This document shows positions 6,933 to 49,638 of a DNA stretch of 64,000 bases, one piece after another. A program made the position numbers and the translations under genes. How positions within the stretch are numbered: the stretch's first letter is position 1; each line of letters begins with the position of its first letter. A model generated the notes under the pieces. The model was not told the DNA's origin and did not search any database. It saw nothing but the letters and a program-made list of their open reading frames with translations. The stretch is from Myxococcota bacterium (GTDB lineage: Bacteria; Myxococcota_A; Polyangia; Polyangiales; JANWZI01), in the NCBI GenBank assembly GCA_025054695.1, contig JANWZI010000004.1, positions 37,311-101,310 of the forward strand, given 5' to 3'.

Positions 6933-7059
6933 AGAGCCGGCCGGGCCCGGAGGGGGACGACGACGTAGCGCCACCCCTTACGCGGGTTGCAGCGTCACAT
7001 CCACGCACTTCGCACCGCATCTCAGGCATCGCGTCGCGACTCGACCACGTCGAAGGAGG

Positions 7060-7227: not shown

Positions 7228-7326
7228 CGCGCTCCGAGACGACGATTCCGCACGTCGCTCATCGCGGGCGCTGCGCCCGGCGACCGCAGCCCAGAGGCGG
7301 CCTGGGGTGGTCGCCCTGCCGTGCGA

Positions 7327-30957: not shown

Positions 30958-32034
30958 TCATCCGTCCAGCGCCGCGATCTCGGCGATGATCTCGTGCAGC
31001 GTCAAGCACCGATGCACGCGACCCGTCCGTAACGCCGCCCCCGGCATGCCGTGCACGACCGCGCTGCGCTCCGATTCAGCGATCACCAGACCGCCGGCAT
31101 CCGCCACGGCATGCACGCCGCGAGCGCCATCGTCGCCCATGCCCGTGAGCACCACCGCGACCAGGCGTGGGCCCACGCACGCCGCGGCGCTGCGGAACAG
31201 CCGGTCGACGGAGGGCACGTAGCGGTCCGAAGAATCGGGCTCCGCTGTCCGTAGCCGGAGCGAGCCCGCAGGCCCTCGTTCGACGGAGGCGACGCGCCCG
31301 CCGGGGCAGACGAGCCCCGTGCCTGCGACGATCGGCTCGCCGTCCCGGGCCTCGCGCACACGCACGCCGCCGAGTCGGTCGAGCCGCTCCGCGAAACTCC
31401 GGGTGAACCGTTCGGGCATGTGTTGCGCGACGACGATGCACAGCCGACTCGAAGACGGCAGCGCAGCGAAAAGCTCGACGAGGGCACTGGGGCCACCGGT
31501 CGACGCGCCCACGACGACGAGCCGCGAGGGCTCGATCGCGACGCCCGGTTGGGGCACCGCGCGCGCCGAGGCGCCCACGACCGCGAAACGCCCGGTGACG
31601 GTGTGACTCGCGCCGCGCAGCCCGGCAGCCGGAGACAGCTGCCGGACGAGCTCGACTTTGGCGCGCAGATCGGCGCGCATCGCGTCCAGTTCCGCGACGC
31701 CCGCGCCGGCGGGCCGTGCGACGAAATCGAGGGCGCCCAACTCGAGCGCACGGAAGACGTCCTGGCGACCCGAGCGGCCGGAGACGACGAGCACGGGTGT
31801 CGGCTGCCTCGCCATGAGCAAACGCAGGAACGTGAATCCGTCCATGCGCGGCATCTCGAGATCGAGCGTGACGAGGTCGGGTCGCAGCTCGAAGCAGCGC
31901 TGCAGGGCCTCGTCGCCGTCGGCGGCGCGCGCGACGACGTGCACCCCGTCGATGTCCTCAAGCAGCTCGGTCAGCGCGCGCCGGTGCGCCGCCGAGTCGT
32001 CGACGACCACGACGCGCAACGGAGCAGCGGTCAC
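30958..32034 (-). CDS. cheB: CheB protein-glutamate methylesterase
   Basis: RVVVVDDSAAHRRAL receiver; VVVGASTGGPSALVELF; VAQHMPERFTRSFAERLD; VLTGMGDDGARG. Confidence 0.95.
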   Translation of the reverse strand: MTAAPLRVVVVDDSAAHRRALTELLEDIDGVHVVARAADGDEALQRCFELRPDLVTLDLEMPRMDGFTFLRLLMARQPTPVLVVSGRSGRQDVFRALELGALDFVARPAGAGVAELDAMRADLRAKVELVRQLSPAAGLRGASHTVTGRFAVVGASARAVPQPGVAIEPSRLVVVGASTGGPSALVELFAALPSSSRLCIVVAQHMPERFTRSFAERLDRLGGVRVREARDGEPIVAGTGLVCPGGRVASVERGPAGSLRLRTAEPDSSDRYVPSVDRLFRSAAACVGPRLVAVVLTGMGDDGARGVHAVADAGGLVIAESERSAVVHGMPGAALRTGRVHRCLTLHEIIAEIAALDG

Positions 32035-32050
32035 CGCGCGTACCTCCCGT

Positions 32051-34069
32051 TCATCCGACCGATCCCCCGAGCGCGGGTTTGCGATAGACGAGCTCGTCGC
32101 CCGCGTGGACGACCTCGAAGGCCGTCGTCACGTGAAGCAGCGATTCGCTGTGGCCGAGCAGCAGGTAGCCGCCCGGCAGCAAGCGGGCGTGCAGCACGTC
32201 GAGCACGCGACGGCGCGCCTCGGGAAGCAGGTAGATGAGCACGTTTCGGCAGAAGACCACGTCGACGCGGCCGGCGGCTGCCGCGCGCACGCCGTCGAGC
32301 AGATTCAACCGGCTGAAGTGACACATCGCCCGCAGGCGCGGCTGCACCTCGAGCCCGTCCTCCACTTCCCGAAAGCAGCGCTCGTAACCCGACGGCATCG
32401 CGCGGAAACTGGATGCCCCGTACACGGCCCGTCGGGCCGCCGCCAGCGCGCGTCGCGACAGGTCGCTGCCGAAGATGCGCACGTCCCAGCCTTCGAACAG
32501 CCCGCTCTCCTCGACGAGCATCGCGATTGTGTAGACCTCCTCGCCGGTCGAGCAGCCCGCGCTCCAGACGGCGAGACGTCGCAGGCCGCGGGCCTCGCCC
32601 CGCTCGCGCAGCCGCGGCAGCAGGACGTCGCGAAAGGCGCGCAGTTGCTCGGGTTCTCGAAAAAAATAGGTCTCATGGGTCGTCAGCAGCTCCGCCGCGC
32701 GCTCCAGCTCCGCGGGACCGTCGGGGTGCTGACGAAGGTGGCGGCAATAGTCCGCGAACGAGTCAATACCCAGCGCCCGCAGTCGTTCGCGGAGGCGGCG
32801 TTCGACCGAGAAGGCGGCCTCGTCGGAAAGCGCGAAGCCGTAGCGCTCCGCGAGCAGATCGCCCAGCGCGCGAAGCGCATCGACGGAGAGGGACGGAGAG
32901 CCCTCCCCCGCGGAACCGGTGCGGGGGCTCGCGGACTGCGCCGACGCGCCGATGCGCGCGCGATCGGGCTCGATCTCGACGGCCGATGGCGCGACGTGGC
33001 CGCGAAGCCTGGCTCGCCTGCCGTCCGTCGCGAAGCGGCTCGCCCGCTCCCACCCCGGCGCAGCGTCGGATTCTGGCTCCTCGAGCAGCGCAATCGCACG
33101 TGGCTCGCCCCACCGACGCAGGGCGCTGCGGGCTTGCGGGGACAGCCCTTCGGTTGCAGCCAACGACGCGATTTGCGGCAAGGCCTCGACCTCACGGGAT
33201 GCGACGAGCAACAGCGCCGCGGCGGCGCGCGTCTGCGGTGGCCCGTCGCCTACGAGCCGACGCAGCTTCGCCCGCGCGCGTGCATCCAGGGACGGAGCGC
33301 GTTCGAGCAGCACGTCGAACGCGGGTGGGCATTCGGCCACGAGCGTCGCCAGGCCGCGCGTCGTCTGCACGAAGAGGGCATCGTCGGCTTCCCTGAGGCG
33401 AGCGAGCAGCGGTTCGACCGCGCGCGGGTCGCCGCAGCGCCCGAGCAGACCGACCACCGCGCGACGGGCTGCCGGCTCCGCGAGATGATCGCCCAGCAGG
33501 CGCCAGGGGATTCGCGCGCGACAGCGCTCGAGCGCATCGAGCACGGCCAGGCGCAGGAACCGATCCGGCGTTTGAAGCAGGGGCAACAAGGCTTCGGTCG
33601 CGCGCGGCCCTCCGATACGTCCGAGCGCGTCGATGGCGGCGACGGCTTCGTGGGGGTTGCTTTCGCGCGCGATTTGGGACAGCACGCGCACGGCCGCCTC
33701 GGCGCGCGTCTCGCCGAGCGCCTCGATCAGGAAGCGCCGGCGACCGGGAGGCGTCCGCGCGAGCGTCTCGAACAGGGCCGACGAGGCGCGCTCTCCCAGC
33801 AACGCGATGGCCTCGAGGCACGCGCCGCGGATCGAGGGCTCCTCGGAGCGTGCGAGCCGGTCGACGAGAAGGCCAATCGCGGCGTCGTCGGCGCAGCGCC
33901 CCACGAGGGCCGCGGCTTCCTTGCGGACGCGCCAATCGATGTCCGCGAACGCGTCGAGCGCCGCACGCACGGCGTCGCCCGGCGCGCGGCGCTCGAGCGC
34001 GAGAAGGGCACGTCGACGATGCTCCGCGTCGGCCCCACGGACCGTCGTGCACTTCGGCGAGGTGCTCAT
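32051..34069 (-). CDS. HEAT-repeat / CheR methyltransferase fusion
   Basis: N-terminal half has HEAT-like repeats (RWRVRKEAAALVGRC-type units); C-terminal half has ETYFFREPEQLRAFRDVLLP, VWSAGCSTGEEVYTIAMLVEE, DVVFCRNVLIYL and GYLLLGHSESL of CheR. Confidence 0.9.
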   Translation of the reverse strand: MSTSPKCTTVRGADAEHRRRALLALERRAPGDAVRAALDAFADIDWRVRKEAAALVGRCADDAAIGLLVDRLARSEEPSIRGACLEAIALLGERASSALFETLARTPPGRRRFLIEALGETRAEAAVRVLSQIARESNPHEAVAAIDALGRIGGPRATEALLPLLQTPDRFLRLAVLDALERCRARIPWRLLGDHLAEPAARRAVVGLLGRCGDPRAVEPLLARLREADDALFVQTTRGLATLVAECPPAFDVLLERAPSLDARARAKLRRLVGDGPPQTRAAAALLLVASREVEALPQIASLAATEGLSPQARSALRRWGEPRAIALLEEPESDAAPGWERASRFATDGRRARLRGHVAPSAVEIEPDRARIGASAQSASPRTGSAGEGSPSLSVDALRALGDLLAERYGFALSDEAAFSVERRLRERLRALGIDSFADYCRHLRQHPDGPAELERAAELLTTHETYFFREPEQLRAFRDVLLPRLRERGEARGLRRLAVWSAGCSTGEEVYTIAMLVEESGLFEGWDVRIFGSDLSRRALAAARRAVYGASSFRAMPSGYERCFREVEDGLEVQPRLRAMCHFSRLNLLDGVRAAAAGRVDVVFCRNVLIYLLPEARRRVLDVLHARLLPGGYLLLGHSESLLHVTTAFEVVHAGDELVYRKPALGGSVG

Positions 34070-34563
34070 GGCGCCACGCCCGCAGAGGGCTCGGCCGCCG
34101 CCAGCGCCGACGCGGCGAGCTGGTCGACGTCGAGCACGAACACCATACGGCCCGCGTGCCGTTGCACGCCGACGATGCCTCGCTCGCGATCACCCGCACC
34201 CAGCGCGGGCAGCGCACCGGACCCCACGGGCTCGCCGCCGAAAACGTCGGTGACCGCATCGACGACGAGTGCGACACCGCGTGTCCCGGCGCGCACGACG
34301 ATCCACTTTCTGCGCCGGTCGCCGTCGGCAGCGGGCGGCAACCCGAATCGACGGCGCAGATCCAGCACCGGGACGACCTCCCCTCGGTGGTCGGCCACCC
34401 CGAGCAGCACGGGGGGTGCGTGCGGGAGCGGCACGACGGGCAGCGGCTGCAGGATCTCCCGTACGCGATGGATGTCGAGGGCGTAGACGACCTCGCCGAC
34501 GACGAAGCCCACGAAGTTCTTCGCGCGACTCGAGCGGGCGCGGGGAGACGACGTCACGGTCAC
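34066..34563 (-). CDS. cheW: CheW-like protein
   Basis: FVVGEVVYALDIHRVREILQPLPVVPLPHAPPVLLGVADHRGEVVPVLDLRRRFGL. Confidence 0.92.
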   Translation of the reverse strand: MTVTSSPRARSSRAKNFVGFVVGEVVYALDIHRVREILQPLPVVPLPHAPPVLLGVADHRGEVVPVLDLRRRFGLPPAADGDRRRKWIVVRAGTRGVALVVDAVTDVFGGEPVGSGALPALGAGDRERGIVGVQRHAGRMVFVLDVDQLAASALAAAEPSAGVAP

Positions 34564-35093
34564 CTCGCCAGGACGGCCGGGTCGAGGAGCACGAGCAGCT
34601 CGTCCGACCGTGCGTCGTCCTGACCGGAGCGGCGCTCGCCCCGCGCGGGACGCGCGGTGCCAGGCCGGCCGATTCCGAGCACGTGATCGGGCGTGACGCC
34701 ACCCAGGCTCGTCACGAGCTCGATCTCGCTTTCGTGCAACCGATGGACCTGCCGGACCTCGTCGACGAGCAGGCCGACCAGCTCGGCGCCCGTCTCGACG
34801 ACGAGCACCCGCGCCGTGCGCCCAGGGGGCGATGCTTCAACGCGGACGCGTCGACGCAGGTCGACCAGGGTCGTGATCCGGCCGCGCACCGAGACGACGC
34901 CGAGCACGCGCTCGGCGGCCCGCGGCACCGGCGTGACGGGAGGGATCCGCACGATCTCTCGCACGCACGCGAGCGGCAGTGCGTAGCTGTCCGTACCCAA
35001 TTGGAAAGCGAGCAGCTCGACGATCCCGTCGCGCGGCGCGAGCACGTGCGCTGCGGACGAGGTGGGCGCGAGCTGGGAGCCACGTCCGGTCAT
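34560..35093 (-). CDS. CheW-like protein (second copy)
   Basis: FQLGTDSYALPLACVREIVRIPPVTPVPRAAERVLGVVSVRGRITTLVDLRRRV. Confidence 0.9.
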   Translation of the reverse strand: MTGRGSQLAPTSSAAHVLAPRDGIVELLAFQLGTDSYALPLACVREIVRIPPVTPVPRAAERVLGVVSVRGRITTLVDLRRRVRVEASPPGRTARVLVVETGAELVGLLVDEVRQVHRLHESEIELVTSLGGVTPDHVLGIGRPGTARPARGERRSGQDDARSDELLVLLDPAVLAR

Positions 35094-37285
35094 GACGGTG
35101 CCCGCGCGAGGGATACGGGCCGATCGACGCCGCCCAGCACCTCCTCGAGCAAACCGGGTGCGTCGAGCACCAGGGCCACGCGCTGCTCGCCCAGATCCGT
35201 CGCGCCTGCGAATCCGCGCACGGCGCGCAGGCTCGGGCCGAGGGGCTTGATGACGACGTCGCGTTGACCGCCCAGATCGTCGACGACGAGGCCGAGCCGC
35301 CGCTGCCCGAGCGCGACGATGACGACGAATCCACGTCGGCGCGACCGCGGATCGGGTGGCAAGGTGGCGGCGATTCCGAACAGGCGGCCGAGGCGACAGA
35401 TGGGCAGTGTGCTGCCGCGGACGCTGACGACTTCGTGGCCGTCGATCCGGCGGACCGCGGCCGGATCGAAGGCAAGGGCTTCTTCGACGGCGGACAGCGG
35501 CAGACAGAAGCTTTGCGCGCCCACGCGGACGAGCAGGGCGCGCACGATGGCCAGCGTGACCGGCAGCGTCAGCGTGAGCTTGGTCCCAACGCCCGGCTCG
35601 CTCGAAACGTCGACGACGCCACCCAACCGGGCGATGTTCGTCTTGACGACGTCCAAACCCACCCCGCGTCCGCTCGTGTCCGTGATGGCGGAGCGCGTGG
35701 TGAAACCGGGCAGGAAAACGAGCTGAAGGATCTCGTGCGGGCTCAGCTCGTCGCGACTCGAACGGTCCACGAGCCCCCGACGCACCGCGGTTTCGAAGAT
35801 TTTGTCGGCGTTCATGCCCGCGCCGTCGTCCTCGATCTCGATGACGACGTGACTTCCCTTCTGGTAGGCGTTGATCGCGACCGTGCCGACGGTCGGCTTG
35901 CCGGCCAGCTCGCGCAACGTCGGACGTTCGATCCCGTGGTCGATCGCGTTGCGGACGATGTGCATCAGGGGGTCGGTCAGCTCCTCGACGATGAGCTTGT
36001 CCACCTCGGTCTCGGCCCCCGTCACCACGAGGCGCACCTGCTTCTCGTGCTCGCGCGCGACCTGCCGCACGACGCGCGCGAGCCGGTCGAAGACCTGCCG
36101 CAGCGGCACCATGCGAACCGAAAGGATTCCGTCCTGCATCTCGTCCAAGTTGCGGTCGAGCCCCCGACGTGCGCGCTGCAACTCGAGGGCGAGCGCGCGC
36201 AAGGAGGGCTCGCCGCGCAGTCGTTCCTCGATGCGGCCGAGCGCGGCACGCACGAGCGAGAGCTCGCCCACGACGTTCAACAAATGGTCGAGCTTGCGGA
36301 TGTCGACGCGGACGGTGTGGGCTGCGCCGCGACCCGTTTCCACCCCCTCGCGGTCGAGCGGCGCGGCTGGCGCGTCGCTGGGACTTCGTTCCGCAGGGCC
36401 CGCCGGCCGCTCGTGCGTCGCGGGCCGCGCCTCGGGGTCGGGCGCGGGAACGATCGTCGGGCGGCGTCCCGCGACCTCGGCCGCGGTGCCGCCTCCCGGC
36501 GACTCGGCTCTCGTCGGAGGTCGCGTCGGTCGTTCCTCGCGACGCGGCACCGGTGCGACGAGCACCTGCGCTCCGGCCGCCTCGGCGATCCGCTCGACGG
36601 GCGCGCGCGAAGCGAACAGCAACGTCAGCTCGATGACGTCCGGCGGCCCACCTCCCGAACGCGGCAGGATCGTGATGACCTCGCCCAGGGACTTGAGGCG
36701 CTGCTTGAGCTCCTCGAGCGAAGTGTCGATCGAGGCGAGCGCGAAGCTGCCGTCGAGTCGGTACAGCGGCACGCCCTGCTCGACGTTCGTGCGCAGGCGG
36801 TGCTCTTCGTACTCGGTGAGCACCCCGAGCGTCTGCTCGTCGAGCTCGTAGACCTCCGCCGGCGCGCGCGCGGCGGGCGGCACCGCCGGCGCGAATCGTT
36901 CGAGTCGTTCGGCGTAGCGCGCCAGATCGCCCTCGCTCGCCGCCTCGACCGGTCGCTCCGCGTTGCCCAGCAGGCGTTGGAAGTGCTCGACGCCCTCGAA
37001 GAGCACGTCGAGGACCGACTGACCGAGCGCGATGCGCCCCAGACGCAAGTCGTCGAGCAGATCTTCGAGCGCGTGCGCGAGCGCGCCCATCTTGTGGTGA
37101 CCGAAGACGTGGGCGAGCCCCTTGAGCGTGTGCACGCCGCGGAAGATCTCGTGCACGAGCCCGGGCTCGTCGCGGCCCTCGCGCTGGGCTTGATCAAGCG
37201 CGAGCAGGTCGCGCGACAGCGCCTCGACGATCTCGCCGGCCTCGGCGAGGAACTCCTCGCGCAGCGCCTCGTCGTGCTCGCTCAC
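35090..37285 (-). CDS. cheA: CheA histidine kinase
   Basis: HEIFRGVHTLKGLAHVFG Hpt; HIVRNAIDHGIE; DDGAGMNADKIFETAVRRGLV; SGRGVGLDVVKTNIARLGG; CheW-like C-terminus. GTG start at 37285 overlaps the upstream stop. Confidence 0.95.
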   Translation of the reverse strand: MSEHDEALREEFLAEAGEIVEALSRDLLALDQAQREGRDEPGLVHEIFRGVHTLKGLAHVFGHHKMGALAHALEDLLDDLRLGRIALGQSVLDVLFEGVEHFQRLLGNAERPVEAASEGDLARYAERLERFAPAVPPAARAPAEVYELDEQTLGVLTEYEEHRLRTNVEQGVPLYRLDGSFALASIDTSLEELKQRLKSLGEVITILPRSGGGPPDVIELTLLFASRAPVERIAEAAGAQVLVAPVPRREERPTRPPTRAESPGGGTAAEVAGRRPTIVPAPDPEARPATHERPAGPAERSPSDAPAAPLDREGVETGRGAAHTVRVDIRKLDHLLNVVGELSLVRAALGRIEERLRGEPSLRALALELQRARRGLDRNLDEMQDGILSVRMVPLRQVFDRLARVVRQVAREHEKQVRLVVTGAETEVDKLIVEELTDPLMHIVRNAIDHGIERPTLRELAGKPTVGTVAINAYQKGSHVVIEIEDDGAGMNADKIFETAVRRGLVDRSSRDELSPHEILQLVFLPGFTTRSAITDTSGRGVGLDVVKTNIARLGGVVDVSSEPGVGTKLTLTLPVTLAIVRALLVRVGAQSFCLPLSAVEEALAFDPAAVRRIDGHEVVSVRGSTLPICRLGRLFGIAATLPPDPRSRRRGFVVIVALGQRRLGLVVDDLGGQRDVVIKPLGPSLRAVRGFAGATDLGEQRVALVLDAPGLLEEVLGGVDRPVSLARAPS

Positions 37286-37662
37286 GCACCCCCCTCGTCC
37301 CGCGCGGCCAGCAGACGGCGGACGGTCGCGCGTAGCTCGTCCGGCGCGAAGGGCTTGGCGAGGTAGCCGTCGGCCCCGAGCTGCATGCCACGCTGCCGGT
37401 CGCGCTCGGCCGCCTCCGTGGAGATGAGCAGGAGTGGCGTGCGCGACAGCGTCGGATGCCCCCGGACGAACGAGACCAGTTCGAGCCCGTGCAAGTCGGG
37501 CATGTGGACGTCCACGATGAGCAGATCCCAGCGCGACCGGGGCAGCACGCGCAGCGCCTCGAGCCCGCTCTCGGCCTCCTCGACCGTCGCGCCCTCCTCC
37601 TCCAGCGCGAGGCGCACCCACGCGCGCATCGCGCGCGAGTCGTCGACCACCAGGACGTGCAT
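37282..37662 (-). CDS. CheY-like response regulator
   Basis: MHVLVVDDSRAMRAWVRLALEEEG...DLLIVDVHMPDLHGLEL...GADGYLAKPFAPDEL. Confidence 0.92.
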   Translation of the reverse strand: MHVLVVDDSRAMRAWVRLALEEEGATVEEAESGLEALRVLPRSRWDLLIVDVHMPDLHGLELVSFVRGHPTLSRTPLLLISTEAAERDRQRGMQLGADGYLAKPFAPDELRATVRRLLAARDEGGA

Positions 37663-37771
37663 GGCGTCGCGCTTGCGCGACAGTTTACCAGACGGCCGTC
37701 GTCCTCTCGATTTCCGTCGCCGTGCCTGCGCCGCGCGCCGCGTCGCGTCGCACGCGCCCCGCGAACCCCCG

Positions 37772-39433
37772 CTACGAGCGGCGAACGCGCAGGACGGACG
37801 GCGCGTAATCCTCGGGCCGCTCGAATCCCAGGAGCAGGAGCAGCGTGGCCGCCACGTTGGCCAGACCCGGGCGCTCGACCGTCGGGTCGATCTCGAGAGG
37901 GGCGCCCGGCGCGAGCACGTGCAGGGGCACGGGATTGAGGGTGTGACTCGTCTTGGGCCGTCCCCCTCCCCGCTCGTCGCGCAGGATACGACCGGTGCGG
38001 CGGTCTCGCTCGAACATCTCGTCCGCATTGCCGTGATCGGCCGTCACGATCATCGCTCCGCCGAGCCGCTCGATGGTGCGCGCGAGCCGCCCAATCTGCA
38101 GATCGACGGCCTCGACGGCGATCACGGTGGGCTCGAGCACGCCCGTGTGCCCGACCATGTCTCCGTTGGCGAAGTTGATGCGGGCGTGGCGCACCTCCCC
38201 GCCGACCAACGCATCGATCGTCGCGTCCGCGATCGCCGCGGCCTCCATCCAGGGCCGCTCGTCGAACGGACGTTGCGAGGAGGGGATCTCGATCCAGCGC
38301 TCGAGGCGCTCGTCGATCCGTCCCGAGCGGTTGCCGTTCCAGAAGTACGTGACGTGACCGAATTTCTGCGTCTCGCTGCACGCGAGCTGCGAGACGCCCG
38401 CGGCGACCAGGTACTCGGCCACCGTCCGATCGATGGCCGGCGGGGGCACCAGGAAGCGGCGGGGCAGCATGCGGTCCCCGTCGTATTGCATCATGCCCGC
38501 GAAGACGACGTCGGGACGCGGGCCGCGGTCGAACGCCGTGAACGGCTCCTCGTCGAACGCGCGCGTCAGCTCGATCGCGCGATCACCGCGGAAGTTGAAG
38601 AGGACCACCGCCGCGCCGTCGCGAATCGGTCCCACGGGCTCCCCGCGCTCGTCGACGATCACGAAGCCAGGCAGGTACTGGTCGATGATGCCGGGCTGCT
38701 CCTCGCGCAGCGTGCGGATCGCTTCCTCGAGCGAGCGAAAGGGCCGCCCTTTCCCCAAGACATGGATCTGCCAGCCGCGCGCGACCATGCCCCAGTCGGC
38801 CTCGTAGCGATCCATCGTGACGACCATGCGTCCGCCGCCGGACGCGGCGCGGTAGTCGCGCCCCGCTTCGCGATGGGCACGCAGGCGCGCCTCGAGCCGT
38901 TCGACGTACTCGAGCGCGCTTCGCTCCGGCACGTCACGGCCATCGAGCAGTGCGTGCACGCGCACGCGCGCGATGCCTTCCTCGGCGCACCGGTCGATCA
39001 GCGCGAAGAGATGATCGATGTGGCTGTGCACGTTCCCGTCCGACAGCAGTCCCACGAAGTGCACCGGTTCGCCGCTGTGCCGCACGCGGTCGACGACGTC
39101 GCGCCAGGCCCTGCCGCGCCAGATCTCCCCCGTCCGGATGGCGTCGTTGACGCGCTTGGCGCCCTGGTCGAAGACGCGCCCGGCCCCGAGTGCATTGTGC
39201 CCCACCTCGCTATTGCCCATGTCGTCGTCCGAGGGAAGTCCGACGGCCGTGCCGTGCGCGCGAAGCTTCGTGGAGGGGCAGCTGGATGCGAGCCGGTCGA
39301 GATTCGGCGTGCGCGCGAGCCAGACGGCGTCGCCCTCGTCGTGTGGACCGATGCCGATACCGTCCATCACGACGACGAGCACCGGGCCTGGCACGCCGCC
39401 GAAATCGGGATGAGGGCGAAGCGAAAGACGCAT
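37772..39433 (-). CDS. gpmI: 2,3-bisphosphoglycerate-independent phosphoglycerate mutase
   Basis: VMDGIGIGPHDEGDAV; GNSEVGHNALGAGRV; GLLSDGNVHSHIDHL; ALLDGRD; NFANGDMVGHTG; TADHGNADEM. Confidence 0.96.
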   Translation of the reverse strand: MRLSLRPHPDFGGVPGPVLVVVMDGIGIGPHDEGDAVWLARTPNLDRLASSCPSTKLRAHGTAVGLPSDDDMGNSEVGHNALGAGRVFDQGAKRVNDAIRTGEIWRGRAWRDVVDRVRHSGEPVHFVGLLSDGNVHSHIDHLFALIDRCAEEGIARVRVHALLDGRDVPERSALEYVERLEARLRAHREAGRDYRAASGGGRMVVTMDRYEADWGMVARGWQIHVLGKGRPFRSLEEAIRTLREEQPGIIDQYLPGFVIVDERGEPVGPIRDGAAVVLFNFRGDRAIELTRAFDEEPFTAFDRGPRPDVVFAGMMQYDGDRMLPRRFLVPPPAIDRTVAEYLVAAGVSQLACSETQKFGHVTYFWNGNRSGRIDERLERWIEIPSSQRPFDERPWMEAAAIADATIDALVGGEVRHARINFANGDMVGHTGVLEPTVIAVEAVDLQIGRLARTIERLGGAMIVTADHGNADEMFERDRRTGRILRDERGGGRPKTSHTLNPVPLHVLAPGAPLEIDPTVERPGLANVAATLLLLLGFERPEDYAPSVLRVRRS

Positions 39434-39516
39434 GACGTCGCGAAAGCCTACAACGCGCCGCACCCCGAAGCTTCGGGCCTCGCCTCGGGCGCGGGCGCGG
39501 GCGCGCGGACCCAGCC

Positions 39517-39785
39517 TCTGGCTCGGGTTCGGGACCAGGCTCGGTCCACGGGCTCGGACTCAAATACGGACTCGGACTCGGTCTCCGACTCGGTCTCGGT
39601 CTCGGTCTCGGACTCAGACTCGGGCTCGGACTAGAATGCGGACTCGGGCTCTGTCTCGGACCCAAGTTCGGTCTCGGTCTGTCTCGGGGTCGGGCTCGGA
39701 CTTACAGCGCTGGCGAGGTTGGTTGATCGCGGTTCGTCTTCCGACAGGGACGCCGGCTCGGACCTGGACTCGGCTTCGAGCTCGA
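39517..39785. repeat. Array 4 of (CTCGGN)n, + strand orientation CTCGGN, partly decayed
   Basis: Direct reading with interruptions (actcaaatacgg, ctagaatgcgg, cccaagttcgg), upstream of gpmI. Confidence 0.85.
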
Positions 39786-39991
39786 CGTCATGTAGCGGAC
39801 CCACCCTTCCGTCGTCGTTGGGTTGCTTGAAACCACACGTCGCCGAACTGCATCGCGGAGCTCGAGCACCGTGCGGATTCCATGAGCGCACCGCAGGTAT
39901 CATTCGATTTACACCCATTCACTTTTCACCTGTGAAACCGGAGACTTTCGACCGTGCAAGACGCACCGAGAAATCACTCGTCGTTTCGGAC

Positions 39992-40021
39992 TTGCGCACC
40001 TGGCACGTCCATCGCTATAAA
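39992..40021 (+). promoter_or_regulatory. Putative promoter for an intergenic RNA: sigma70-like TTGCGC-N18-TATAAA overlapping sigma54-like TGGCAC-N5-TCGCT (GG-N10-GC)
   Basis: 39992 TTGCGC, 40016 TATAAA; 40001 TGGCACGTCCATCGCT. Palindrome TTTCAC-CT-GTGAAA at 39924-39937 upstream. Confidence 0.45.
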
Positions 40022-40027
40022 TGTGAA

Positions 40028-40148
40028 TACCCGACGAAGTGGAGCAGAGCCGGGGTCCGCCCCCCGTTTCACCCGGCTGCCCACTTCGGCCCTCCTGGCG
40101 GCCTCCGGAAGCCCCACCCCCCACGAACCGGAGGCCGCCAATTTTTTT
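40028..40148 (+). ncRNA. Candidate ~120-nt structured sRNA between gpmI and tsaD
   Basis: Stem-loop 40035-40088 (CGAAGTGG pairs CCACTTCG; AGCCGGG pairs CCCGGCT) followed by an intrinsic terminator; promoter motifs just upstream; no plausible CDS on this strand. Confidence 0.5.
40097..40148 (+). terminator. Rho-independent terminator
   Basis: Perfect 12-bp stem GGCGGCCTCCGG (40097-40108) / CCGGAGGCCGCC (40128-40139) followed by AATTTTTTT. Confidence 0.85.
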
Positions 40149-40168
40149 CCGTCGCGGTGCCCGCGGCG

Positions 40169-41224
40169 TCAGTTGCGCCGAAGTTTCGGCATCTTGCCGC
40201 GGACATGCGCGACCGGGTCTCGGGCGTAAGGAGCGAGCGATTGGTCCGCTCGCTCGCCGCGCGCAAGCCGATGGGTTGCCGCCAGCGCGATCATCGCCGC
40301 GTTGTCCGTGCAGGCCCGCACGGGGGGCACGAACAGCTCGATCCCGTGCGCGGCGCTGGCCTGCGCGGCCGCCGCGCGTAACCCACGATTGGCGGCCACC
40401 CCTCCGGTCAGCACGAGGCGGCTTGCGCCGCGCCGCAGGCACGCATCGATGGCACGCTCTACGAGCGCGTCGACCATCACGCGCTGGAAGGAAGCGCAAA
40501 GATCGGCCAGTCCCTGCTCGTCATCGGGCACGCCGTTGCGGCGTACGTGGAGGGCCACGGCGGTCTTGAGGCCGGAGAACGACATGTCGAGGCTGTCGCC
40601 TCGGTCGGCCATCGGACGTGGCCACCGAATCGCATCGGCGCGGCCACGCGAGGCGAGCGCGTCGATGCGCGGCCCGCCCGGATAGCCGAGGCCGAGCAGC
40701 CGCGCGACCTTGTCGAACACTTCGCCCGCGGCGTCGTCGCGCGTCTGCCCGAGGATCTCGACGTCGTGCGCGTCACGCACCTCGTACAACGCGCTGTGCC
40801 CGCCGCTGACGAGCAGCGCGACGTACGGAAACGCGGGCCCCGGAGGATCCGATTCCGTCCAGCGCAGGCGCGGGGCGAGCAAGTGACCTTCGAGGTGGTT
40901 GACGCCGACGAGCGGCAGATCGCGCGCGAGCGCCATCGCGCGCGCAGCCCCCAGCCCCACGAGCAGCGCGCCGACGAGTCCGGGCCCTTGCGTGACGGCG
41001 AGGGCGTCGATGCGCGCCCAGCCACCCGCTTGCTCGAGCGCGCGCTCGACGACGGGCACGATGGCCGTCAGGTGCATGCGCGCCGCGAGCTCGGGCACGA
41101 TGCCGCCATGCGGCGCGTGGCGCGCCACCTGACTCGAGACCACGTCGGCGTGCACCAGGCCCGTCTCGTCGACGACGGCCGCCGCCGTCTCGTCGCACGA
41201 CGTCTCGATGCCCAGCACTCTCAT
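40169..41224 (-). CDS. tsaD: tRNA N6-adenosine threonylcarbamoyltransferase
   Basis: MRVLGIETSCDETAAAVVD; GPGLVGALLVGLGAARA; GVNHLEGHLLAPRL; VSGGHSALYEV. Confidence 0.96.
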   Translation of the reverse strand: MRVLGIETSCDETAAAVVDETGLVHADVVSSQVARHAPHGGIVPELAARMHLTAIVPVVERALEQAGGWARIDALAVTQGPGLVGALLVGLGAARAMALARDLPLVGVNHLEGHLLAPRLRWTESDPPGPAFPYVALLVSGGHSALYEVRDAHDVEILGQTRDDAAGEVFDKVARLLGLGYPGGPRIDALASRGRADAIRWPRPMADRGDSLDMSFSGLKTAVALHVRRNGVPDDEQGLADLCASFQRVMVDALVERAIDACLRRGASRLVLTGGVAANRGLRAAAAQASAAHGIELFVPPVRACTDNAAMIALAATHRLARGERADQSLAPYARDPVAHVRGKMPKLRRN

Positions 41225-41739
41225 CGCCGCTCCAGCACGAACAGTCCGTAGTGGTCGCCGGGCCGCTCGCCGCTCCCCGCGAGCACGCGCACTTCGATGC
41301 GACCGGAGTCCATGAGCGAGACGAAGACCACGGCCTCGCGCCCCTCGAGGGGGCCTCCGGGCGCCCCGCCGACGACGTAGATCTCGTTGCGTAGGCGCGT
41401 ACCTCCCGGAAAGTCGAAGCGGGAGAGCAGGTCGTGCTCGAGCGCGCCGACGCGCAGCAACGGGCTCGCGTCAAAGACGCGACCCGGGATCGAGCCCGGG
41501 TCGCACGGTCGCGTGCCTGGCTCACACGTCGTCAGAGAGCCGGGCTCCGTGCGCCTGTCGTAGGTGAGCACGGTGTTCTGGGCGAACCCACGCCGGAACG
41601 CGCTGCACGGCCCGGCCGACGGATCGCATCCGAGGTCGTCGGTGCCGACGACGACGCCGCTGAAGACGCCTCGATGATCCGCGAGGTCGGCGCAGCCACC
41701 GAGGATGGCCGCAAGGCACACCACGGGCCGCACGTTCAT
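41221..41739 (-). CDS. Hypothetical lipoprotein coupled to tsaD
   Basis: MNVRPVVCLAAILGGCADLADH lipobox; stop overlaps the tsaD start. Confidence 0.6.
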   Translation of the reverse strand: MNVRPVVCLAAILGGCADLADHRGVFSGVVVGTDDLGCDPSAGPCSAFRRGFAQNTVLTYDRRTEPGSLTTCEPGTRPCDPGSIPGRVFDASPLLRVGALEHDLLSRFDFPGGTRLRNEIYVVGGAPGGPLEGREAVVFVSLMDSGRIEVRVLAGSGERPGDHYGLFVLERR

Positions 41740-41854
41740 GGGGCGAAATCTAGCAGACGGAGCGACCGCGCAGGCGACGGACCGCGGACCTCGGCCGCGG
41801 CTTTCCGCTCGGCGTGCTGACGCGGTGCGGGCGTCGGCCTATGCTCGCGCACCG

Positions 41855-43942
41855 ATGACGGTCCCCGCCGTCGCCTTCGTCGCCGCGGGCGAGCCCGACG
41901 CCGGTTTGATCGAGTCCTTGCGCGCCCGCGGTTACCGCGTCGAACGGCGCGACGCCCAGGAGCCGCCGCTCGACGTCGCGGTGCTCTTCGTTTCGGCCGA
42001 CGTCGACGGCGCGCTCGACGTGGCCCGGCGTTGGCGGACCGACTCGAACGCGGTGCGCATCTGTTTCGTGGGGGACCCGCTTGGAGCAGGCTCCCAGGTC
42101 GCGGTGCGTGCGCTCGGAGCCGACGCGTATCTGCCGCGTCCGGTCACCATCGACGCCCTCGTCGCGTGGCTCGAGACGACGTTGCGGTCCGGATCGGAAC
42201 GGCACGACGTCCGTGACGGGTCGCCACCCGCCGTACAGGCGCTCACCAACGACGTGTGGCGCCCGCCGGAACGCACGCTGCGCCTCGACGGAGAGGCCGC
42301 CCCCGACGCATCGCTGCCCGGTATCGACCCGTCGGTCACCGCCGACGGACGGATGCCATTCGGCGCTTCACCGTTCCTCGAGCGGCTGTTTCGCGAGGCC
42401 GATCGCGCGATGTTTCCAGGCGAGCCGCCCATCGTCATTCGGCTCGCGGTCGCCGACGAGCCGGCCGAGGTGCTCGTTCCCGACGATGCGCTCGAGCAGC
42501 CGGTGCCCGTGATCGACGTCGGCGACGAGGAGGGACCGGACGGGCTCACCTTCGTCGGGCCCGCCGCGGACGTTGCGGAGCCCGTCGATGGCTTGTCCAC
42601 TGCCGGACCGAAAACGCCGGATGGAGACGGCGTCCAGGAGGCATCGGACGTCGTGCACGTCGAGCGCGATCGACCGTCCTCGAGCGCGTCGGCACGTGAA
42701 GCCGCCGTGGCGACCTCGGCGCCCGCGCGGGACGTGCTCCCCTCGGGCGGCATGGGCTCGGTGGCGATCCGTGCCGGTGGCGAACGGACGGTCGGAGGCA
42801 CGGCCGCGGGGCGTCGCTCAATCGCGGATCGCCACGGCGGGTGGTCGACGAGTCGACCGGACGCCTCCGCGCGTCTGGAGCCAGCCGTGGTCGTTCCGCG
42901 CCAGCTGGAGGTGGGAGGCGTCGAGCTTCTCGCGGAGCTCTTCCGCCTGATCGAGAGTCGAGCACGGGCGCGGGTGCGCCTCGTACCGGTGCAGTCGGAA
43001 GCGAGCGAGCCGGATCCCGCACGCGATCCGCTCGTGCTCTGCCTCGATGGAAGCTGGCTCGAGCACGTCGAAGGTCCCATCGGGCTCCGCGTCCTTCGGG
43101 GGCTGCGAGACGAGGGCCGCGCCGATGCCTCCCCGGACGAGGACCTGGCGGCCGAAACCTGGCTCGCGCGTGCCGTGCGCGAGGGCCGCGTGGGCCGACT
43201 CGAGATCGAGCGTCGGCGCTGGCAGGCCGTCGAGGATCTCGTCGCGGACGCGATCGGCGCTCCCACCGTCCACGTCCACATCGAGCCCGAGCCCGAGAGC
43301 GCGACGAGGGCTGCCCGTTACGGTCGCGACGTGGGCGCGCTGCTCGTCGAGGCCGCGCGCCGGCGGATCGACGTCGACCGGCTGCGCCGCTGGCTCGGGC
43401 CGGCGGTCACGGGCGTCGCGGTCACGGCAGGGGGTCTGCAGCGGATGCGGGAACTGGGGGTGGAGCCCGAGATCGTGGGCGTGCTCGGGGCCGCCGAGGG
43501 TGTCGCCATCGACGCGCTCCTGGCCGTGGCCGAACCCGCCTCCGGAATGCCGGGTCTGCTCGCCGTGCTCGTGGCGGCCGGCGCCTTGCGTCCCCTGACG
43601 CTCGTCGGGGATGCCGGCATCGAACTGCCTGCGCGCGCCGACCCGGTCGCCTCGGCGCGACGCGTGCTCGAGCACCTGGTCGCGCTGGCCGAAGAAGGCG
43701 ATTACTTCGCCATGCTCGGCGTGGGCTGCGACGCGTCGGCACGTGAGATCGAGCTCGCCCACGCGCGTCGCGTCGAGCTGCTCGACGAAGCCCGACACGT
43801 GCTCGCGGCTCAGGGCGATGTTGAAGAGCACGTCCGCTTCGTGGCTCGCGCCCTCGACGAAGCGCGGTCGCTGATGGGCGTCGAGCGCTGGCGGATGGCC
43901 TACGCGGCCGCGATCCGGGCGGGTACCGCGCGACGGAGGTGA
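41855..43942 (+). CDS. Multidomain protein with receiver-like N-terminus and J-domain-like C-terminus
   Basis: N-terminus VAFVAAGEPDAGLIESLRARGYRVERRDAQ...ALGADAYLPRPVTIDALVAWLE; C-terminus GDYFAMLGVGCDASAREIELAHARRVELLDEARHVLA. Confidence 0.6.
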   Translation: MTVPAVAFVAAGEPDAGLIESLRARGYRVERRDAQEPPLDVAVLFVSADVDGALDVARRWRTDSNAVRICFVGDPLGAGSQVAVRALGADAYLPRPVTIDALVAWLETTLRSGSERHDVRDGSPPAVQALTNDVWRPPERTLRLDGEAAPDASLPGIDPSVTADGRMPFGASPFLERLFREADRAMFPGEPPIVIRLAVADEPAEVLVPDDALEQPVPVIDVGDEEGPDGLTFVGPAADVAEPVDGLSTAGPKTPDGDGVQEASDVVHVERDRPSSSASAREAAVATSAPARDVLPSGGMGSVAIRAGGERTVGGTAAGRRSIADRHGGWSTSRPDASARLEPAVVVPRQLEVGGVELLAELFRLIESRARARVRLVPVQSEASEPDPARDPLVLCLDGSWLEHVEGPIGLRVLRGLRDEGRADASPDEDLAAETWLARAVREGRVGRLEIERRRWQAVEDLVADAIGAPTVHVHIEPEPESATRAARYGRDVGALLVEAARRRIDVDRLRRWLGPAVTGVAVTAGGLQRMRELGVEPEIVGVLGAAEGVAIDALLAVAEPASGMPGLLAVLVAAGALRPLTLVGDAGIELPARADPVASARRVLEHLVALAEEGDYFAMLGVGCDASAREIELAHARRVELLDEARHVLAAQGDVEEHVRFVARALDEARSLMGVERWRMAYAAAIRAGTARRR

Positions 43943-43950
43943 GGGCGCCG

Positions 43951-46101
43951 ATGCGAGTGCACCGAAACGCCCGATGTGCACGTCCAGGCGGCGAAGGCGG
44001 GCCCGCCCTTCGCGCGCCCCTCGTCGCAGCGCTGCTGCAGCTGCTGGGTAGCTGTAGCGAAGGCGCCGACGATCCGAGCCATCCGGCCGTCGTGGTGTAC
44101 ACAGCGTCCGAGCACGCTCTGCTCGCGGAGCGGACGGTCGCCGTGCTCGGCGGCGCGGTCGGGGTGCGGGCGAGCGAGGATCCCGCGGCGGCCGCCTCCG
44201 ACGGGAACGGGTCGACCGTGCGCATCGGCCTGCTGGCCGACGCTACGGTGTGCGGCGAGTGCTACCGGCTCGAACAGACGGCGGGCGGCTTGCTCGTCCG
44301 CGGCGGCACGCCGCTCGGCATCCAGTACGGCCTCGCCGACGCGCTCGAACGCCTTGGCGTGCGGTTCGCGCACCCGGAGCGCGCCTACGTGCCGGCGCGC
44401 TGGAGCCGGCCGGCGCTCGCACCGGAGGAGCAAGGACGCCTCGTCGAGCCATGGATGAGCTTCCGCGGCATGCAGCTTCACACGCTGCATCCGATCGACG
44501 CCTATTTCGACTTCCTCGAACCGGGCGAGGAGAATCTCGCGCGCGCGAAGGCGACCCTCGACTGGGTCCTCGCCAACCGGGGCAACTTCGTGCAGTGGGT
44601 GGCGCTCGACGTCGTGCAACGCTCCCCCGAGCGGTACGAGCCGTGGGCCGAGCACACGCGGCGTATCGTCGAGTACGCCCACCGACGCGGCCTGCGCGTG
44701 GGGCTCGTCATCCAGATCTTCGGCCACAGCAACCTGCAGCGCGCCTGGGATCTGGTCGACGGCGAGCCCCCACCGCCGGACGCACTGCCCGCGCTCGTCC
44801 GGCCGCGGCTCGAGACGATCGTGCCCGGGCTGCAGCTCGACGTCATCAGTCTCGACTTCGGCGAGTTCTTCGCCGCAGAGCCGGAGACCTTCGTCGCCGC
44901 CATCCGCGCCGTCTACGACACGCTGGTCGCCCTCGATCCCGACATCGAGGTCAACGCGAAGCTACACGTGGGCAACTACGACGAGACCCGCGTCGAATGG
45001 ATGGGCGAGCGCATCTTCTACTACTTCCTCGCAGCCGAAACGGGCCGGCCCATCGTGCCGTGGATTCACACCGTAATGTACTACAACCTCTTCGAGGACG
45101 CGGGCGGCGCCTACTTGCACGACGACTTCTCCGAGCACCGCGAGTTGCTCTTCCGCCTGCTCCGCGAGGGTCGCCGGGTCGCTTACTACCCGGAATCGGC
45201 CTACTGGGTCGCGTTCGACATCTCGGTGCCGACCTATCTGCCCGTCTACTTGCGCTCGCGCTGGCTCGACGTGCACGAGATCGCACGGCGTGCCGAGGCG
45301 GACGGGCACCCTGCCCTCGACGAGCACGCCATCTTCAGCTCCGGGTGGGAATGGGGCTACTGGCAGAACGACGTCGCGGCCCTGCGCCTCGGCTGGCAGC
45401 GGGTGCCGCAGTGGGAACAGCTGCCGGCGTGGATGTACGCGCCGATGGGCGAGGTCGGCGCGCGCCTCGCGCAGGCCATCGTGAGCCTGGGTGAAGCGCA
45501 GCGCGACGCGCTCATCGGCCAGCGGCTCGCGGCCTATCTGGCCGGGCGTGACGTGGCCATCGACGTCGGCGAGACGATGGGCATCGTGGCGCAACCGCTG
45601 CGGCCCAGTCTGCAGACCATCGCCACGGCGGACGCCGCGCGGCTGGCCGATTTCCGGGCCCGCGTCCTCGAGCCCCTCGATGGATTCGCGGCACGATGCG
45701 AGGCGCTCGCTTCGGAAGTCGCTTCGCTGCAGGCCGAGGACGACTCCGTCACGCCTTGGCTCGAGGAGATGCGCGATGGCTTCGAGGTGACCGCGCTGCG
45801 CGCGCGCTTCGCGCACCGTCTCTGGTCGGCCGCCGCCGAGCGGGACCGTGCACGCGCCGAATCGGCCCTCGCCGAGGCCGTCTCGCTGCGCGATCGGGCC
45901 CACGCCGTCGTGCAACGCCGCCACGCCGCGTTGCACGCCCGCGACGGGATGCGCCTGCTCGCACGCCGCCGCAACGCCACGCTCTATCCGTACGGTTATC
46001 TGCGGATGGCCCACGAGCTGTGCTACTGGGACCGCGAGCTCGTCGAGGCGCGCAACGCCATCCTCGGCGAATCGCGAGCTCCGGACGATTGCTTTTTCTG
46101 A
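43951..46101 (+). CDS. Glycoside-hydrolase-like lipoprotein (GH20/GH67-type N-terminal subdomain)
   Basis: LLQLLGSCSEG lipobox; VRIGLLADATVCGECYRLEQTAGGLLVRGGTPLGIQYGLADALERLGVRFAHPERAYVP typical of the non-catalytic GH20b/GH67N fold; TIM-barrel-like region follows. Confidence 0.55.
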   Translation: MRVHRNARCARPGGEGGPALRAPLVAALLQLLGSCSEGADDPSHPAVVVYTASEHALLAERTVAVLGGAVGVRASEDPAAAASDGNGSTVRIGLLADATVCGECYRLEQTAGGLLVRGGTPLGIQYGLADALERLGVRFAHPERAYVPARWSRPALAPEEQGRLVEPWMSFRGMQLHTLHPIDAYFDFLEPGEENLARAKATLDWVLANRGNFVQWVALDVVQRSPERYEPWAEHTRRIVEYAHRRGLRVGLVIQIFGHSNLQRAWDLVDGEPPPPDALPALVRPRLETIVPGLQLDVISLDFGEFFAAEPETFVAAIRAVYDTLVALDPDIEVNAKLHVGNYDETRVEWMGERIFYYFLAAETGRPIVPWIHTVMYYNLFEDAGGAYLHDDFSEHRELLFRLLREGRRVAYYPESAYWVAFDISVPTYLPVYLRSRWLDVHEIARRAEADGHPALDEHAIFSSGWEWGYWQNDVAALRLGWQRVPQWEQLPAWMYAPMGEVGARLAQAIVSLGEAQRDALIGQRLAAYLAGRDVAIDVGETMGIVAQPLRPSLQTIATADAARLADFRARVLEPLDGFAARCEALASEVASLQAEDDSVTPWLEEMRDGFEVTALRARFAHRLWSAAAERDRARAESALAEAVSLRDRAHAVVQRRHAALHARDGMRLLARRRNATLYPYGYLRMAHELCYWDRELVEARNAILGESRAPDDCFF

Positions 46102-46123
46102 TGGCCGCGTTCCCGAGGTGCGC

Positions 46124-46597
46124 TCAGGCGTACTGCGGAACGGTCCGGCGTGCGCCGAAGCGGGGAACCGGGCGCCAGCTGGTCGGGCCGCCCCCGCGAT
46201 GAGGGGCGCGCGCCGGTAGGCCGTCGAACGCCATTCCCATCGCGGGCCCGTTCGTCCAGACGACACGGCAGGGAAAGACGTACTCCTGACCCAAGCGCAC
46301 GTCGGTGGCGCGAAGCACCGTGCGGGTGCCCGGCGAGAGCGTCCGCGCCGACTCGACGATGAGCCCGTCGGCGCCGAGCGCACGCACCTGCCCGGAGCCG
46401 AACCCTCCTGGAACGGTGAATTGGACCGGCAGCGGACCCTCGGCCGAAGGGGGCGCCGCGCCGTCGAGCGACTCGCCGCGCAGCAGCGAGGTCAGGCCAC
46501 GCAGGCGCGCTCGCTCCGACTCGTCGAGCGGTGGCCCCGAGAGATCGCCGCGGGCGCGCAGCATCTGGTATTCGTACACGATGTCGAGCAGGCTCAT
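46124..46597 (-). CDS. PilZ-domain-like protein
   Basis: VQFTVPGGFGSGQVRALGADGLIVESARTLSPGTRTVLRATDVRLGQEYVFPCRVVWTNGPAMGMAFDGL. Confidence 0.55.
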   Translation of the reverse strand: MSLLDIVYEYQMLRARGDLSGPPLDESERARLRGLTSLLRGESLDGAAPPSAEGPLPVQFTVPGGFGSGQVRALGADGLIVESARTLSPGTRTVLRATDVRLGQEYVFPCRVVWTNGPAMGMAFDGLPARAPHRGGGPTSWRPVPRFGARRTVPQYA

Positions 46598-46855
46598 CGG
46601 TTTCTCCCTCGTCTCACGGGCGTTACGATCACCGCTCTGGACCGACGCGAGCAGCAACTGATGTGCCACGTGGCCGTTGGCCCGAGATTGCATGCGAAGT
46701 CCCGCGACGCGCGCGGGCCGTCGTGTCCGATTCGGACACGTCTGTCATGGCGTGTCACTCGCGCTGATCGGGCGGAAGAGCTCGCGAATCGACCTGTCCG
46801 GCTCGTCGTGACCGGCACGTTGCGATAGACGTTCGAGCGACTCCGAGGGTTCACG

Positions 46856-48187
46856 GTGGACCTTTTTCGTCACGCCTCCGACCGAGACCCCACCGGAAGG
46901 CCTCTTTCAGACCGCATGCGGCCGCGCCGGCTTGGGGAGATGGTCGGTCAGAGACATCTGCTCGGTGAGAACGCGCTGCTGCCGCGCGCGGTGGCTCACC
47001 GGCGACTGCCCTCGATGGTGCTCGTGGGCCCGCCGGGAAGTGGCAAGACGACGCTCGCCCGGCTGCTGGCCGCCGAAACGGAGGCCCATTTCGAGACGTG
47101 GAGCGCAGTGACCGGGGGCCTCGCGGAGCTTCGGGACGCCATCGAACGCGCCGACCACCGCCGGCTCGAGGGGCGGCGGACGGTCCTCTTCGTCGACGAG
47201 ATCCACCGCGTCACGCGGGGTCAGCAGGACGTGCTGCTACCGCACGTCGAGCGCGGAACCGTCGTGTTGGTCGGCGCGACGACGGAAAACCCGTCCTTCG
47301 CCCTGACCGCCGCGCTGCTGTCGCGGCTGCGGGTCTTTCGACTCGAGCCATTGTCGAGCGAGGACCTCGTCGCGCTGCTCGAGCGCGCCCTCGCAGATCA
47401 CGAACGGGGCCTCGGCGCGCTCGAGCTGCGGGCCGAGCCGGAGGCCCTGGCTCGTCTCGCCTCGGCGGTCGGCGGCGATGCGCGGCGGGCGCTCGACGTA
47501 TTGGAGCTGGCGGCGGTGCACGCCGCGCCGCCGCACGGCAGCGGCGTGCTCGGCATCGAGAGCGTCCAGGCCGCGCTCGCCGAACCGGCGCTGCCCCACG
47601 ACCGCGGAGGCGATGCGCACCACGACCTCGCCTCCGCGTTCATCAAGTCGATGCGCGGTAGCGACCCGGATGCCGCCGTCTACTGGATGATGCGCCTGCT
47701 CGATGCGGGCGACGACCCCCTCTTCGTGCTGCGGCGCATGATCGTCTTCGCGAGCGAGGACGTGGGCAACGCGGACCCGCATGCGTTGCCGCTCGCCGTC
47801 GCCGCCGACGCGGCCTTCCGGCGCCTGGGCATGCCCGAGGGAATCTTCGCGATGGCTCAGGCGTGCTGTTACCTCGCCTGCGCGCCCAAGTCGGACGCGA
47901 GCTCGCGCGCGTGGCTGGCCGCCCGCGGCGACGTTCGCGAGCACGGGGCCCTCGCGGTGCCGATGCACCTGCGCAATGCGCCCACCGCGGCGATGCGCGC
48001 CGAGGGACGCGGCGCGGGCTACCGCAACCCGCACGACGAGGGCGGTCACGCGCCGGGCGTCGTGTACTTGCCCGACGCGCTCGCCGGTCGTCGCTATTAC
48101 GACCCGAAGAACATGGGGGCGGAGGCGCGCCTGCGTGCCTGGTTGGAACGGCTGCGCCTGCGCGGGCGGCCGGAAGGGACGCACTGA
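46856..48187 (+). CDS. rarA: Replication-associated recombination protein A (AAA ATPase)
   Basis: PLSDRMRPRRLGEMVGQRHLLG; GPPGSGKTTLARLLA; VLFVDEIHRVTRGQQDVLLPHVE; GATTENPSFALTAALLSR; IVFASEDVGNADPHAL. Confidence 0.95.
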   Translation: MDLFRHASDRDPTGRPLSDRMRPRRLGEMVGQRHLLGENALLPRAVAHRRLPSMVLVGPPGSGKTTLARLLAAETEAHFETWSAVTGGLAELRDAIERADHRRLEGRRTVLFVDEIHRVTRGQQDVLLPHVERGTVVLVGATTENPSFALTAALLSRLRVFRLEPLSSEDLVALLERALADHERGLGALELRAEPEALARLASAVGGDARRALDVLELAAVHAAPPHGSGVLGIESVQAALAEPALPHDRGGDAHHDLASAFIKSMRGSDPDAAVYWMMRLLDAGDDPLFVLRRMIVFASEDVGNADPHALPLAVAADAAFRRLGMPEGIFAMAQACCYLACAPKSDASSRAWLAARGDVREHGALAVPMHLRNAPTAAMRAEGRGAGYRNPHDEGGHAPGVVYLPDALAGRRYYDPKNMGAEARLRAWLERLRLRGRPEGTH

Positions 48188-48191
48188 ATCG

Positions 48192-49394
48192 ATGGGCGCG
48201 GAGCCATCGTCCTTCGTCTGGCACGTCGCGGCGATGCCGTTCCCTTCGCCACAGGGCACGCAAGCCGCCGTCGCAGCCATGGTCACGGCCGAGGTGCGGG
48301 CGGGGCGCAGCGCACGGCTGTTGACGTACGGCGAGGGCGTCGGGCCGCCGCCCGAGGGCATCCCCGTCCAACGTGCGTGGCGGGTGCCGGGCTCGGCGTC
48401 GCTGCGCTCGGGGCCGTCGGTGCGCAAGCTCGCCGCCGATGCCCTGCTCGCGGCCGCGCTGCGCCGGGTGGCGTGCAGGGCGCACGCGGCCTTCTTCGTC
48501 GCCCACCACGTCGAGGCGCTGCTCGCGGCGCTGCCGGTGCGCCGTCGCGGTCCCGTCGTGTACGTCGCGCACACGAGCCTGCAAGCCGAGCTGCCCGTGT
48601 ATTTCGCGGCGGGCGTGCTCGCACCAGCCGCCACGGTCGGCCGTACGCTCGACGTGCGTGCCGTACGATGGGCGGATGCGGCGGTGGCCGTCGCGCCGCG
48701 TCTGGCGGCGCGTCTGCAAGAGACGTCGGGACGAGCGGTAGGTGTCGTCCCGCTGCCGTGGCCGCTTCCGCCCCCGACGCATCCCGAGGCCTGGCTCGCG
48801 GCCCGCACGGCGATCGGGGTGCCGCTCGATGCGGAAGTCATCCTCTACGCGGGCAATCTGGACCCGTATCAGGGCTGGGAGGACCTCGTCGAGGTGCTCG
48901 CGCGGCTCGTGCGCCGTCGCCCGCGGCTGCGCCTGCTCGTCGCGACGGCGTCCCCTTCGGAGCCGCTGTTCGCCGAGGCGCGACGCGCGGGCGTCGCCGA
49001 CCGTTTGCACGTCGTGCCCTTGCGCGACGAAGCGGACCGTCGCGACGCGCATGCGGCGGCCGACGTTGCGGTCGTGCCCAGGCGGGTCGAAGGTGGCGTC
49101 AGCGTCAAGTGGATCGACGCGATGGCGCGAGGGGTTCCCGTCGTGGCCGCGGAGCTCGCGACGGGGGGATACGCGATCGATCCGCAGACGGCCCTCGTCA
49201 CCGACGGCGAGGGGGCGGCGCTCGCGGCCGCCACGGCCGTCCTGCTCGGAGCACCCGAGCGGCATGCGTTCGCCGAGCGCGCCCGTCGCTGGGTGGCGCG
49301 CGTGATGAGCGCGGAGGCCTACCTCGCCGCGATGGATGCGGCGGTGGAACGTGCGCGCGCAACGTTCGGCGCGCGTGCCCCTCGGCGGTGTTGA
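48192..49394 (+). CDS. Glycosyltransferase group 1
   Basis: LYAGNLDPYQGWEDLVEVLARL; VVPRRVEGGVSVKWIDAMARGVPVVAAELATGG. Confidence 0.85.
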   Translation: MGAEPSSFVWHVAAMPFPSPQGTQAAVAAMVTAEVRAGRSARLLTYGEGVGPPPEGIPVQRAWRVPGSASLRSGPSVRKLAADALLAAALRRVACRAHAAFFVAHHVEALLAALPVRRRGPVVYVAHTSLQAELPVYFAAGVLAPAATVGRTLDVRAVRWADAAVAVAPRLAARLQETSGRAVGVVPLPWPLPPPTHPEAWLAARTAIGVPLDAEVILYAGNLDPYQGWEDLVEVLARLVRRRPRLRLLVATASPSEPLFAEARRAGVADRLHVVPLRDEADRRDAHAAADVAVVPRRVEGGVSVKWIDAMARGVPVVAAELATGGYAIDPQTALVTDGEGAALAAATAVLLGAPERHAFAERARRWVARVMSAEAYLAAMDAAVERARATFGARAPRRC

Positions 49395-49462
49395 CGTGAC
49401 GCGCGTGGCGCCGATGGCACACGACGAGGATCCTCCCGAGGCGTCGGCTGCGGCGGCGGTCG

Positions 49463-49613
49463 GTGGATTCGCGTTCGGACTCGGATTCGGCCTCGGACCC
49501 GACGTCCCGGTCGCGGTGTGTCCGACTCTGAGTCCGAGCCCGAGCCGGGGACCGAGGCCGAGTCCGAGTCGGAGTCCGAAACGGACACCGAGCCCGAGCC
49601 TGAGCCCGAATCG
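49463..49613. repeat. Array 5 of (CTCGGN)n, with two blocks in opposite orientation (inverted pair)
   Basis: gcgttcggactcggattcggcctcggaccc (49467-49500), then gagtccgagcccgagccggggaccgaggccgagtccgag... (49530-49613). Confidence 0.88.
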
Positions 49614-49638
49614 CCATCAAGCAACGTGACCTCCACCG

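Follow-up and report, generated by a model that had tools for sequence, protein, structure and literature searches.

The gpmI-tsaD intergenic region

The window, that is the whole stretch of 64,000 nucleotides from a Myxococcota bacterium that we analysed, contains gpmI and tsaD, both encoded on the minus strand. On the plus strand between them we observed two hairpins, preceded by a predicted sigma-54 promoter and by inverted repeats (Table 1). The initial annotation had proposed here, opposite to its flanking genes, an independently terminated and structured sRNA of about 120 nt. All the letters that it described are present, including the stems, the 12-bp GC stem and the U-tail at the positions that it gave.

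Table 1. Features in and around the gpmI-tsaD intergenic region (positions in the window)
Feature	Positions	Strand	Description
gpmI	37772-39463	minus	Flanking gene
Dyad 1, TTTCACCTGTGAAA	39924-39937	.	Perfect TTKCRnnnnYGMAA; putative site of an NtrC-type sigma-54 activator
Dyad 2, TTTCGACCGTGCAA	39946-39959	.	Perfect match; 22 nt from dyad 1, spacing as in relatives
Degenerate third dyad, TTTCGGACTTGCGC	39984-39997	.	Two mismatches; holds the TTGCGC of the initial annotation
Sigma-54 -24/-12 promoter, TGGCACGTCCATCGCT	40001-40016	+	Strict pattern in the family; the genome has rpoN
Predicted transcript, about 121 nt	40027-40147	+	From promoter geometry (start near 40027, +1 placed 12 nt after the -12 C) and terminator
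SL1	40035-40088	+	8-bp outer stem (40035-40042/40081-40088), 6/3-nt internal loop, 6-bp inner stem (about 40048-40054/40072-40078), 17-nt loop with CCCCCC (40060-40065); from fold and covariation
SL2 and intrinsic terminator	40097-40148	+	12-bp GC stem (40097-40108/40128-40139), loop with CCCCACCCCCC and CCCCCC (40117-40122), tail AATTTTTTT (40140-40148)
tsaD	40169-41224	minus	Flanking gene

The RNA of positions 40025-40149 folds with a free energy of -59.4 kcal/mol, compared with -41.0 ± 3.7 kcal/mol for shuffled sequences (z = -4.98), and none of 200 shuffles was equally stable. When both strands of the window were scanned for stems with 10 or more perfect pairs and T5 or longer behind them, the terminator of the candidate sRNA was the sole one found (mean of 0 in 20 Markov copies), which bears out the rarity of U-tract terminators remarked on in the initial annotation. 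The C-run present in each of the two loops, the most telling feature of the RNA, had been missed there. In the gap between gpmI and the sRNA we also noted an imperfect tandem repeat with units of 6/12 nt (CGGACT / CGGTCTCGGACT; 39549-39680), and elsewhere in the window a tRNA-Ser (gga) gene lies on the minus strand (9160-9232).

Relatives and covariation

A DNA search for relatives gave one short match (L002), and its neighbourhood contained the same two C-loop hairpins. We built covariance models from the window sequence alone (R1), from six sequences (R2) and from 22 sequences (R3); the starting model was made from a single sequence because MAFFT misaligned the stems of divergent copies. The search with R1 revealed further copies, several of them as tandem pairs; many weak R1 matches (L011-L024) were set aside, being by appearance coding or chance sequence. 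With R3, 73 of the 184 genomes of the same order gave a match at E ≤ 0.05, and by our count from the table of matches 39 did so at E ≤ 1e-4; such E-values are rough, the models being short-calibrated, and the low-scoring matches include terminators without a promoter.

In the 22-sequence alignment, changes on both sides are seen in 25 of the 26 pairs and 96% of the cells pair. The covariation score is 0.805; shuffles gave 0.210, and sliding the partners never gave more than 0.233. This alignment was fitted to the model and thus leans toward its structure; an artefact is nevertheless unlikely, given how large the effect is and how the sliding control came out. The sRNA proposal thus passed the computational half, covariation and conservation of the stems in relatives, of the refuting test that the initial annotation had set for it. 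While the stems change, C-runs of about 6-11 are kept, two per copy, in nearly all matches of at least 45 bits. With homologues in many genomes and strong covariation, the structured and independently terminated RNA of the initial annotation is supported, and the gpmI-tsaD locus very probably encodes a regulatory RNA of about 120 nt with two C-exposing hairpins, as judged from these comparisons. The Rfam search that the initial annotation had suggested gave no match at the gathering threshold, 6C and ncS035 being weak matches below it. The family to which this sRNA belongs in myxobacterial relatives has no entry in Rfam and is apparently new to description.

Four loci from three genera have a copy, or a pair of copies, between genes for a thiolase and a pyruvate-carboxyltransferase-like enzyme and a gene for an RND-type transporter (names read from the sequences). 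At the remaining loci the neighbouring genes vary; neighbours that differ between families fit an action in trans. Tandem copies occur, the largest array having at least seven model matches, most of them with their own promoter. This array (L133, 1-3109) shows seven model matches every ~380-570 nt, a strict sigma-54 pattern at six of them and dyads such as TTGCAAGGATGCAA. Three back-to-back pairs of C-loop hairpins were seen at L082 (8213-8513), without a sigma-54 site directly before each unit, and at L090 (8984-9101) two hairpins with a common loop motif, CCTCCCCGACC, stand right behind an apparent gene stop, again without a sigma-54 site.

Predicted sigma-54 promoter, dyads and putative activator

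The promoter of the initial annotation, TTGCGC-N18-TATAAA, did not hold. Its letters are present (39992-39997 and 40016-40021), but a sigma-70 scan of positions 31000-50000 gave no promoter; TTGCGC is located inside the degenerate dyad and TATAAA is an unconserved stretch after the -12 element. A sigma-70 promoter was therefore rejected: what is conserved instead is the overlapping sigma-54 site, overlooked in the initial annotation, together with its upstream dyads. Of that first reading, the sRNA thus stands and the promoter falls.

TGGCACGTCCATCGCT satisfies the sigma-54 pattern, with GG at -25/-24, GC at -13/-12 and ten bases between the pairs. A strict site of this kind is found 20-45 nt upstream of 37 of the 42 family matches of at least 45 bits (23/24 at 60 bits or more, 14/18 at 45-60 bits), counts that take paralogues and close relatives as independent although, both being included, not all the matches are. 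The background, in random windows from the same loci, is 11/2140 (0.5%). The models R1-R3 hold no upstream sequence, and the promoter is thus outside the model. The genome of the window contains rpoN (C219:9129-9605).

The dyad motif TTKCRnnnnYGMAA was written from the upstream island of the loci with conserved neighbours and from other family promoters. Allowing one mismatch, 45 of 48 family promoters have it (background 8%), and 25 of 48 have a perfect dyad (background 3%); within a pair the spacing is for the most part 20-23 nt, or roughly two turns of the helix. Since the motif was drawn from family promoters, its independent test is the promoter of the sRNA Pxr, which was outside the derivation: in Hyalangium, three perfect dyads lie at this promoter, all of them within 150 nt.

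Nine genomes of the order, that of the window included, were tested for PxrR-like activators, and every one has a single candidate that stands out, with 475-506 bits compared with 387 or less for the next. The recognition helix of these PxrR-like activators is TTLWRKMKR, as in PxrR (in G089 the activator has TTLWRKMSR), and the second-best activators do not have it. In the genome of the window the corresponding gene (L185, G000:C219:3325-4689) is on another contig than the sRNA, the one that carries rpoN. Co-occurrence, together with one Pxr promoter, suggests that the PxrR-like activator binds the dyads.

Relation to Pxr and possible mode of action

Pxr blocks fruiting-body development in Myxococcus, and a C-to-A change in its SL1 loop abolishes its function (PMC5684412); there is no settled view of its direct targets (PMC5684412, PMC11928866). 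The window RNA is like Pxr in its sigma-54 promoter, TTTCAGATCTGAAA-type upstream dyads, C-run in the SL1 loop (40060-40065 in the window, UUCCCCCCC in the Pxr of Hyalangium), GC-rich terminator with GCGGCC, small size and, in some genomes, paralogues (PMC5568312, PMC5684412). In contrast, Pxr is located beside pxrR (nla19) and the window RNA beside gpmI and tsaD; Pxr has usually three stem-loops, with a C-run in SL1 only, whereas the window RNA has two hairpins with a C-run in both. Some Cystobacter paralogues of Pxr have two stem-loops (PMC5568312). We compared sequences directly using two Pxr loci obtained by a pattern scan, one from Hyalangium, which was not used for the covariance model, and one from a Myxococcaceae MAG. 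R3 scored 21.3 and 22.5 bits on them, the best match in each locus, with E-values, for 15 kb, between about 5e-4 and 9e-4. Pxr was not found at E ≤ 1 when the whole Hyalangium genome was searched with R3, BLAST of Pxr against the genome of the window gave no match, and the 3' part of Pxr gave only short, chance-like BLAST matches in 284 genomes of the phylum.

The control of the family is likely shared with Pxr. For a common origin, we estimate from these sequences that the chances are about even or somewhat better. The origin of pxr has been placed at the base of the suborder Cystobacterineae (PMC5684412). It may be, and we consider it an even bet, that the Myxococcota possess an ancient regulatory circuit made up of a C-loop sRNA, its sigma-54 promoter, paired dyads and a regulator of the PxrR type. 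Pxr, the gatekeeper of fruiting-body development, would be one derived branch of it, other lineages keeping twin-C-loop forms, some in tandem arrays. Were it so, Pxr would pair its C-run with G-rich mRNA leaders. Somewhat less probable to us is that a sigma-54 C-loop sRNA arose here independently of Pxr and 6C, since C-loops and GC-rich terminators converge at high GC, and that only the activator regulon is shared. C-loop sRNAs are indeed known in several phyla (6C/B11, GsrN, sX13), and the weak R3 scores and the lack of a Pxr BLAST match in the window's genome are in line with it; however, the order of the elements is that of Pxr (dyads, sigma-54 site, C-run SL1, GCGGCC-type terminator), and members of family f9 have in common with Pxr the arrangement GAAGG...CCCCCC...CCTTC, with GAAGG/CCTTC as inner stem.

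The 6C/B11 RNAs of Actinobacteria also have two hairpins with a run of at least six C in each loop (RF01066), and 6C, whose second hairpin stands likewise before a U-tract, is the top Rfam match in the region. True membership in 6C is nevertheless very unlikely: the match has 19.7 bits against a gathering threshold of 47 (E = 2.1) and leaves the first hairpin stem unmatched, none of 57 relatives scanned with 6C passed the cut-off, and the window RNA belongs to another phylum and has a sigma-54 promoter and dyads. Slighter still is the chance that the region has no RNA of its own and is a terminator only, or the terminator of the minus-strand tsaD. SL2 lies 29 nt past the tsaD stop, and GC-rich C-loop hairpins occur behind or near genes elsewhere too, as at L090, but only the plus strand has the U-tract, and this terminator follows a conserved sigma-54 promoter with dyads and SL1 even where the surrounding genes are unrelated. 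Open frames run across the region, and yet a small protein encoded by the transcript is the least probable reading of all, as the stems change in a compensatory manner and the copies differ from one another by single bases in the lengths of their loops and C-runs.

Quite probably, in our view, the product of the locus is a trans-acting sRNA from a so far undescribed myxobacterial family, driven by a PxrR-like activator and sigma-54, whose C-loops act as seeds on G-rich leaders. A relative of PxrR (Nla19), a response regulator of the NtrC type, would bind the paired dyads (39924-39959) and drive transcription by RNA polymerase-sigma-54; the RNA of ~121 nt would fold into two hairpins, each exposing a C-run, the second one being also the terminator. 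We infer that the loops pair with G-rich stretches of mRNA leaders, chiefly near ribosome-binding sites, and so alter translation. Such pairing is our best guess because 6C/B11 and GsrN work in this way (PMC10470900, PMC5869019): in M. abscessus, B11 goes on repressing a target with a six-G leader after mutation of just one of its loops, whichever it is (PMC10470900), and GsrN of Caulobacter, which unlike the window RNA has a single C-rich loop and is under the general stress sigma factor, uses that loop to pair with a G-rich mRNA leader (PMC5869019). No G6 was found near the 67 candidate gene starts of the window, so no target mRNA is proposed within it.

A broader family in which the control elements are those of Pxr and the C-loops are conserved offers comparative material, a predicted activator site and a testable seed hypothesis, and it adds sigma-54 to the possible controls of C-loop sRNAs. 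At one locus (L086), an sRNA copy is followed 130 nt farther downstream by the gene (6307-7923) of a 538-amino-acid protein that resembles FHA-type sigma-54 activators.
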